Positions 14,787-17,330 of a stretch of 36,573 bases of DNA are shown one piece after another. The translations under genes and the position numbers were made by a program. The notes under the pieces are model-generated. The model was not told the DNA's origin. It worked only from the letters and a program-made list of their open reading frames with translations, and made no database searches. This DNA comes from Mycoplasmataceae bacterium. GTDB lineage: Bacteria > Bacillota_I > Bacilli_A > Mycoplasmatales > Mycoplasmoidaceae. Position 1 is the stretch's first letter, and each line of letters starts with the position of its first letter. The DNA lies in contig JAISPD010000033.1 of the NCBI GenBank assembly GCA_031275175.1, positions 1-36,573 of the forward strand, given 5' to 3'.

Positions 14787-15443
14787 ATGGTATATGCGAT
14801 TATTTTAGCTGCTGGGATTGGGAAACGTTTCAAATACACTCCTATAAAACCTTTGTACCTTGTTAAAGGTAAACCCTTATTTTTACATTCAATTGATACT
14901 TTTATTACTAATAAAAAAATTGACAAAGTTTTATTAGTAATAAATAAAAATTATTTAATTCATTATCAAAAATATTTGCAGAAAACCAAATATAAAAATG
15001 TATTAATTTGTTTTGGAGATGTTAGTGCACGTTGAAAATCACTAATTAAAGGTGTGCAGTTCGCAAATAATCATTTCAAACTTCAACCGCAAGACATACT
15101 TGTTACACACGATGCAGCAAGGATTAATGTATCGCGTAAAATCATTGATAAAAATATTGAAATTGCTCGTAAATATGGGTTTGCTTCAACAGTATTATCA
15201 TTACATGATTCAATTGTAGAAGTCAAAGAACAAATCAAATATTTAGAACGTTCACATAAATATATAGTACAAACTCCGCAAACTATTCAATATCGATTTT
15301 GAAGTATATTAAATCCAAAAAATCAAAAAACTATTACTGATTTATTTACATACTTAAATATTAAATTAACCTCAAAAAATCTTGTAAATGGTGATTTACA
15401 AAACTTTAAAATTACAACAATTGAGGACTTAAAACTTATTTAA
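14787..15443 (+). CDS. ispD: 2-C-methyl-D-erythritol 4-phosphate cytidylyltransferase
   Basis: IspD transfers CMP from CTP to methylerythritol 4-phosphate, the third step of the MEP pathway. The 218-residue protein has the nucleotidyltransferase start ILAAGIGKRF, a Lys-Pro pair in PIKPLYLVKGKPL, HDAARINVS (the metal-binding Asp) and VQTPQTIQYRF, all characteristic of IspD. The related TarI enzymes share these motifs, but the neighbouring ispF favours IspD. UGA gives Trp in SARWKSL and YRFWSIL. There is no clear ribosome binding site; it starts 13 bases after folD. The final eight bases overlap the stop of the convergent hydrolase gene. Confidence 0.87.
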
Positions 15444-16242
15444 CGAAGCTCAGCACTTCTTCAATAAATTGTTGTAGTTCTTCTTCAAAAATTAAGTGAC
15501 CAGAATGCATAAATTCATAAGTAACTAATAAATCACTTGGCATATGCTTTTTAAAAAATTTTATTGTATGTTTAGGTGGAATAGTTTTATCATAATGTCC
15601 CACCATTAGTAATGTAGGAACTTTAATATTCTTTTGAGCTTTTTTAACATTAGTAAGTAGACTAAAAGAGAGATTTTTAAACAGTTTTTTCATATTGACT
15701 CAATTAGCTAATTGAAATTCTAATTGTTTTTTACTCAACTCTACCCATAGTGGGTTTTGTAAAAATTTTGACAAATTTTCTGGAGCATACAAACACTTTA
15801 ATAAACGATTTTTTTGTTTCATATTTCTTGGATAAAAAATGTACAAATTTTTAAGCCCAGCATGCATAGCTGCTGGATTTGCTGGGCATAATAAAAATAA
15901 TTTTTTAATTTTATTAGGAATGATATTAGCCACAATTGAAACTAATGCCCCACCCATTGAATGCCCCATTAAATAAAAGTTATTTAATTTTTTAAATTCG
16001 ATGTAAGACACAATGTAGTCAGCTAACTTTTTAGTTTTTAAATCTTCTGGTGTTACACCTTCAGTGTTACTACCATGTCCCGGTAAATCGATCATGTATA
16101 CATTAAAATATTTTGCTAATTCTCTACTAGCAGTGAAATAACCATGTTCAACACAAAAACCATGAATGAATAATAAGTCACCTAAACAAGTGTTTTTATT
16201 GGTACACGGAATTATGAATTCTTTAAATGTAGTAGGTAGCAT
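15436..16242 (-). CDS. Alpha/beta hydrolase, lysophospholipase-like
   Basis: The 268-residue protein has the full alpha/beta hydrolase layout: oxyanion-hole LFIHGFCVEHG, DLPGHGSNTEG, the nucleophile elbow GHSMGG with Ser near residue 95, the catalytic Asp region GHYDKTIP and the catalytic His in HSGHLIF. The fold subgroup looks like monoacylglycerol lipases and lysophospholipases (serine aminopeptidase S33 group). There is no signal peptide, so it is cytoplasmic. UGA gives Trp in LANWVN. It follows the DhaL-DhaM gene by eight bases, so it is probably co-transcribed. A link to glycerol or glyceride use is conceivable but not shown. Substrate cannot be told from sequence. Confidence 0.85.
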
Positions 16243-16250
16243 GATTGATT

Positions 16251-17330
16251 TTACTTATTAATTTTAGCCTGTGATTCAACAATTTCACAAAGTTCTTTAG
16301 CACTATTTGTATTATTACTTGAAACCGCAATCATAATTCCTTCTAGAAAAGCACAATTAGCAATTTTAATACGAGTAGCATATTCTGGAATTAGATTGAT
16401 GGCCATTTCTGCATTCATTTTTGATGAACCTAAATCATAAATAATTAATACTTCTGCATCAGTAGCTAGTTTTTGAATTGTTTCTTTAATTTCATATGGA
16501 TTAGTGCCAAATGATTTACCTTGTTCTATTCCGGCAACATATGCAAAAGCAAAATCAGCTGTTTTCATTTCATTAGCAAACTCTCACATAGCTTTTGCTA
16601 GTGCTAAACTATGAGAAATCATTAAAATACTTACATTTTTAGTGATTGGTAGCAACGAATACTTGTTTGTTTCATTTTGATTATGCACTTCACTTTTTAA
16701 TGAATCATTTTTGTTTTCTTCTGGAGTCATTTGATTAATTTTTGCCAACGCTGAAAAAATGATGGCAACCGAACAGGCCCCTGGATCCATGTGGCCGATT
16801 GATCTTTCTCCTAAATATGACGCTCTTCCTTTGGTGGCTAACATTTTAATTGTAGCTTCAGCGCCATCTTTAGCTGCGACAGCTGCTTTAGTAAAATCTA
16901 AAATTTCTGGTGTAGTCTTTAAAGCAGCAATTGTTGGGTATAAAGCATCCAACATGGTTTTTTCACCAATCTTAGATTTTCCTAGTTGACACATACGTGT
17001 GTATGCCGTTTCCAGTGCATTAGCTAAATCTTCATTAACAATTTTAGTTTTACCTTTTAAAACTGTGGCTAACGCCATGAAAGCTGTACCTAAAATTGGA
17101 CCCGAACTACCACCAACTTTAGACATCAATTGTTGAGCACAAATCATTAAATCTTTTTCAATCAAGCTTTCATTTGTAAAATTACTAACTTGACTTAATA
17201 TAGCTTGAAAACCTCTAACGATGTTTGAACCATGATCACCATCACCGATAGAAGCATCAAGTTTGTTTAAATTATCTTCGTTTAGTACTAAATTGTCAGT
17301 AATCACTTTTATATATTGTGTAATTTTCAT
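16251..17330 (-). CDS. Fused DhaL-DhaM dihydroxyacetone kinase protein
   Basis: One 359-residue frame joins two subunits of the PTS-dependent dihydroxyacetone kinase that are usually separate. Residues 1-205 are DhaL, the ADP-binding subunit, with DGDHGSNIVRG at about 30 (Mg-ADP-binding Asp cluster) and GGSSGP at about 73. A low-complexity Asn/Glu/Lys linker follows. Residues 230-359 are DhaM, an EIIA-Man-like domain, with MISHS (His240 is the expected phosphorylated histidine), GKSFGTNPYEI and IIYDLGSSKMNAEMA. The junction crosses a UGA-Trp codon in KAMWEFA, so a standard-code reading would show two genes. Start is the ATG at 17330. DhaK, which holds the substrate, is not in this window. An alternative is that it serves another kinase partner. 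Confidence 0.87.

Follow-up and report, generated by a model that had tools for sequence, protein, structure and literature searches.

Does the long reading frame of this locus really join DhaL and DhaM, two subunits of the PTS-dependent dihydroxyacetone kinase, in one protein, and if it does, what would such a protein do with no DhaK beside it? In the window, by which we mean the whole stretch of 36,573 nucleotides that was analysed, the frame runs on the minus strand from an ATG at 17330 to a last sense codon at 16254 and a stop at 16251-16253, encoding 359 residues when read with code 4 (Table 1). The two domains had been named in a preliminary description made from the letters of the DNA, and family models run on the full code-4 translation recovered both. 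The first matches PF02734 (Pfam, E 6.6e-51), passes the TIGR02365 DhaL equivalog cut-off (198 bits against 138.3), and carries the motifs LDASIGDGDHG (Asp25, Asp30, Asp32), GGSSGP and KGRASYLGERSIGHMDPG; the three aspartates align with Asp30, Asp35 and Asp37 of E. coli DhaL, and the motif was also aligned with DhaL of L. lactis. The second matches PF03610 over residues 233-346 with 61.8 bits (cut-off 21.4), and its predicted phosphohistidine, placed at position 240 in the preliminary description as well, aligns with the histidine of the solved L. lactis DhaM. The roles of these residues, Mg-ADP binding for the aspartates and phosphate carriage for His240, we take to be established for the family. 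The AlphaFold model shows two confident domains (mean pLDDT 93) and a low-confidence spacer around residues 213-218, the best PDB matches being, for the first domain, E. coli DhaL and the DhaL chain of the L. lactis complex with DhaM (structures 2btd, 3pnl and 3cr3) and, for the second, DhaM-type proteins.

Table 1. Features of the fused gene, its surroundings and related loci
Feature	Position	Strand	Remarks
Alpha/beta hydrolase	15436..16242	(-)	8 bases downstream of the fused gene
Fused dhaL-dhaM gene	16251..17330	(-)	359 codons and stop, code 4; same fusion in six further genomes
DhaL domain, residues 4-196	16743..17321	(-)	Family models and fold match
Spacer, residues 197-232 (~36 residues)	16635..16742	(-)	Near-neutral over 197-225; model partly of low confidence
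DhaM (EIIA-Man-like) domain, residues 233-359	16254..16634	(-)	Family models, alignment, fold
Predicted phospho-His240 codon	16611..16613	(-)	Invariant in 7/7 fused proteins
Single in-frame UGA (Trp249)	16584..16586	(-)	Inside DhaM
dhaK run, contig C23 of the window's genome (G000)	L046:6185-9945		dhaK, LacA-like, LacB-like, class II aldolase, ROK kinase
Altered extra DhaL copies	L049:5570-6166, L047:6164-6673, L052:7052-7648, L065:6017-6610, L159:6913-7503, L160, L161
Second DhaL copies	L162, L163		DGDYG and GGTSGI

The fusion in the window is real: the same fused chain, 58-68% identical, was found in six further genomes of the genus (G037, G038, G042, G044, G053 and G055), and chance or an assembly error is thereby excluded. 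A search with a profile of the fused protein, covering 320 genomes from the order, 392 spread across the phylum and 315 from one further order, returned matches over both domains from these seven genomes only. About 70 other genomes had a match in the DhaM range (counted from the match tables) and none of them joins it to DhaL; among the best 80 loci from named genomes, a sample rather than a census, one is that of G044 and none of the other 79 holds both domains in one frame, 76 of these being loci that test joining, as the stretches retrieved for L112, L123 and L146 contain no DhaM. Ten apparent fusions, reported as long frames of 335-363 residues over both matches (G024, G030, G082, G181, G258, G271, G595, G598, G623 and G785), turned out on reading of their sequences to be two adjacent genes that share a frame but have a stop between them. 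Within the genomes searchable here, the fusion is thus rare, and the claim that the two subunits are separate elsewhere held in all of those compared; this is a known enzyme in an unusual packaging, with no new reaction. In the literature that we searched we found no paper on a DhaL-DhaM fusion, which does not exclude that one exists. The simplest history would be that dhaL lost its stop in front of an in-frame dhaM and that dhaK was relocated, and for a single origin of the fusion the AU test gave a p value of 0.23. In other mollicutes (L060:8558-9601, L061:6246-7271, L182, L183 and L184), dhaL and dhaM lie in the same frame with one stop codon between them, a short step from fusion.

It had also been proposed that the junction crosses a UGA codon, and that annotation with the standard code would therefore hide the fusion. 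The first point has to be corrected: the single UGA is codon 249, nine residues past His240 and inside DhaM, and the spacer contains none. The second holds for the window's own gene, which the standard code would truncate within DhaM, so that the practical warning on annotation stands; it does not extend to the six other fused genes, which are without UGA and hence open, and visible as fusions, under either code.

As for the missing subunit, the window indeed contains no DhaK, as first described, but the genome does, and of the two alternatives then offered, a DhaK elsewhere or a different phosphate acceptor, it is the former that our searches support. The assembly, a draft that is 86% complete, encodes one canonical DhaK on another contig (C23:6233-7162), with 432.7 bits against the TIGR02363 cut-off of 406.25, that keeps His56, Asp109 and His218 in numbering identical to that of E. 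coli, His218 being the histidine that binds the substrate covalently. One EI (contig C11; TIGR01417, 726 bits) and one HPr (C27) were likewise recovered, and a glycerol dehydrogenase lies on the EI contig (NF006941, 461 bits, cut-off 336); the genome also encodes a MIP-type channel, and family searches of the draft found no second DhaM. Because DhaK, EI, HPr and glycerol dehydrogenase are all present, and because relatives keep dhaK, dhaL, dhaM and the hydrolase in one row, a different acceptor is not favoured. Glycerol dehydrogenase, in fact, accompanies full-length DhaK in 10 of 10 genomes of the genus and occurs in 1 of the remaining 26 (Fisher p 4e-8, with no correction for kinship), counting in the ten a fragment at a contig end in G055. 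In that same genome, a 152-residue DhaK-like fragment (L055:16490-16948), 38% identical to the DhaK of the window's genome, exists in addition to the full-length gene. Long frames resembling AdhE, the aldehyde-alcohol dehydrogenase, were seen by reading near dhaK in G055 (L056:929-3568) and G041 (L063:12553-15177).

In known systems, ADP bound by DhaL receives phosphate from DhaM, after which DhaL phosphorylates a substrate that is covalently attached to DhaK (PMC3863723, PMC6429413). Given a conserved fusion, the expected residues, the predicted folds and a full set of partner genes, we consider it highly probable that the window encodes the phosphate-delivering half of a PTS-dependent dihydroxyacetone kinase that is ordinary in kind and belongs to a route of glycerol oxidation, two of its subunits having been fused and its dhaK having moved away. 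EI and HPr would hand phosphate from PEP on to the DhaM domain, where His240 would receive it, and the next acceptor would be ADP bound in a DhaL domain, either of that chain or of a neighbouring one; the DhaL domain would then act on dihydroxyacetone held by the separate DhaK from the other contig, which would dock on the fused chain, and the dihydroxyacetone would presumably derive from glycerol by way of the genome's glycerol dehydrogenase. That the fusion would tie the transfer from DhaM to DhaL into one chain, as originally suggested, agrees with this scheme, and the spacer might help transfer or fix the ratio of the two domains. Some observations run counter to it: the DhaM domain scores 92.1 bits with TIGR02364, the DhaM model, slightly below the cut-off of 98.25, the fused gene of G053 is without an adjoining hydrolase, and the company that dhaK keeps in five genomes of the genus, described below, would also suit another ketose. 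Among phosphate relays whose subunits mix freely, the PTS-dependent dihydroxyacetone kinase is a standard case, and a natural DhaL-DhaM fusion offers a simple system in which to ask whether rate or specificity changes once the donor is tethered to the ADP carrier. Our results also point, for some members of one uncultured mycoplasma genus, to a glycerol-oxidation route made of glycerol dehydrogenase and dihydroxyacetone kinase.

Several relatives encode, in addition, an extra unfused DhaL, which in G044 and G037 sits immediately upstream of the fused gene; none was found in the window's own assembly at its 86% completeness. These copies still pass the DhaL model and keep the Asp residues, but in place of DGDHG they read DGD[Y/F]G and in place of GGSSGP they read GGSSG[F/L/Q]; the ATP-dependent enzyme of C. 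freundii has Thr and Val at the same two positions (DGDTG, GGSSGV). Second DhaL copies of G020 and G021, which belong to another genus and fall in a different part of the tree, read DGDYG and GGTSGI. A role of the altered copies that is ATP-fed or regulatory is possible. One could go further and imagine that the fusion is an intramolecular relay for one DhaK, and that the altered DhaL of the relatives (DGD[Y/F]G, GGSSG[F/L]) serves that same DhaK from ATP; we regard this as a rather long shot, which, if true, would mean one substrate subunit common to PTS-fed and ATP-fed partners.

The surroundings of dhaK bear on which substrate the relay would serve. In the window's genome and in G037, G038, G042 and G044, dhaK follows a gyrA-like gene and precedes LacA-like, LacB-like and class II aldolase genes, and in the first four a ROK kinase gene comes next, the order in G044 being the same as far as the aldolase. 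In G038, G042 and G044, dhaK and the fused gene share a contig, on opposite strands and separated by about 6.5 to 9.4 kb. Such a run would fit a kinase of identical mechanism that phosphorylates another short ketose, for instance a tetrulose, in the service of the sugar-isomerase and aldolase genes among which dhaK is found. However, the DhaK scores above the dihydroxyacetone kinase equivalog cut-off, and in G036, G041, G050, G053 and G055 dhaK stands outside the run and glycerol dehydrogenase is present all the same, so we judge another ketose unlikely. The LacA-like and LacB-like proteins of the run in the window's genome score below their own equivalog cut-offs. In G053 (scored) and G055 (by reading), dhaK adjoins a gene for a MIP-type channel.

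The spacer raises the question of whether one protein is made or two. Among the seven fused genes, dN/dS is about 0.95 over spacer residues 197-225, against 0.14 in DhaL and 0.18 in DhaM, ratios that are rough because synonymous sites are near saturation. The frame is kept in all seven, with no stops and with length differences of whole codons, and no start codon is common to their spacers. A random stretch of 28 codons of the same composition would stay open about 14% of the time, a chance that cannot simply be multiplied over seven genes because the genes are related. Since the spacer changes in a near-neutral manner and yet keeps its frame without a conserved internal start, we read it as a flexible tether between DhaL and DhaM. 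Were two proteins made, whether from a start codon within the spacer or through cleavage of the chain, the fusion would lose its mechanistic meaning, and both the near-neutral change and an in-frame ATG at residue 201 of the window's gene would suit this; no start is conserved, though, in the spacers of the six others, and residues of the type LLPITKNV directly before DhaM are conserved in the fused genes, which makes two products improbable.

A regulatory function appears less probable still. E. coli DhaK and DhaL act on a regulator, and in the window dhaK does not adjoin the fused gene, so one might picture a sensor of PTS flux that is phosphorylated by the PTS and controls another protein, with a DhaL that is not enzymatic; against this, the catalytic residues are intact in all three subunits and no regulator gene lies beside the fused gene. 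That the protein is a relative of FakA, the fatty acid kinase, and no dihydroxyacetone kinase subunit at all is hardly credible: the DhaL fold is common to FakA, but the FakA-like model YloV scores 28 bits where the DhaL model scores 198, and a Dak2 protein of 566 residues, the size of FakA, is encoded separately on contig C32 of the genome.

Set beside the known systems, the locus and its genome provide the sequence features expected of DhaKLM, namely a DhaL with the three aspartates, a DhaM with its phosphohistidine, a DhaK with His218, and EI and HPr; they depart from the usual architecture, which the reaction does not need, in that DhaL and DhaM share one frame of 359 residues instead of being separate polypeptides. 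The DhaK-DhaL-DhaM system of L. lactis and other Gram-positive bacteria is alike in its three domain families, its catalytic residues and its single-domain DhaM fed by EI and HPr, and the transient DhaM-DhaL complex of L. lactis has been solved (3cr3). There, however, the three are distinct proteins, usually from adjacent genes, whereas here DhaL and DhaM form a single chain, with dhaK on a different contig. E. coli DhaKLM likewise keeps ADP on DhaL, takes phosphate from DhaM and holds the substrate on DhaK. In E. coli, DhaM has fusion partners of its own, HPr-like and EI-like domains, whereas the partner of DhaM here is DhaL; multidomain DhaM is mentioned in the literature (PMC3863723). The ATP-dependent C. 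freundii enzyme (1un9) and human TKFC also involve DhaL in a fusion, but with DhaK and using ATP, unlike the present DhaL, which is joined to DhaM and whose DGDHG and GGSSGP motifs are those of the PTS-fed form. Two other architectures were considered and rejected: the ATP-dependent dihydroxyacetone kinase, as TIGR02361 gives 135 bits (cut-off 575), DhaM is present and DhaK is separate, and that of FakA, in which the middle and C-terminal FakA domains come after a DhaL-like domain, as the second domain here is DhaM.

The next gene had been called a hydrolase, and it does encode an alpha/beta hydrolase, which in six genomes, all of those with the fusion except G053, adjoins the fused gene. The order dhaK-dhaL-dhaM-alpha/beta hydrolase is found in G050, of the same genus and with separate genes, and also in G020 and G021 of another genus, so that two genera keep a hydrolase of this kind adjacent to dhaM or dhaK. 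The solved relatives of the hydrolase, all of weak similarity, include a putative esterase and monoacylglycerol lipases, and our guess, from gene order and this weak similarity, is that the hydrolase may supply glycerol from lipids or esters.
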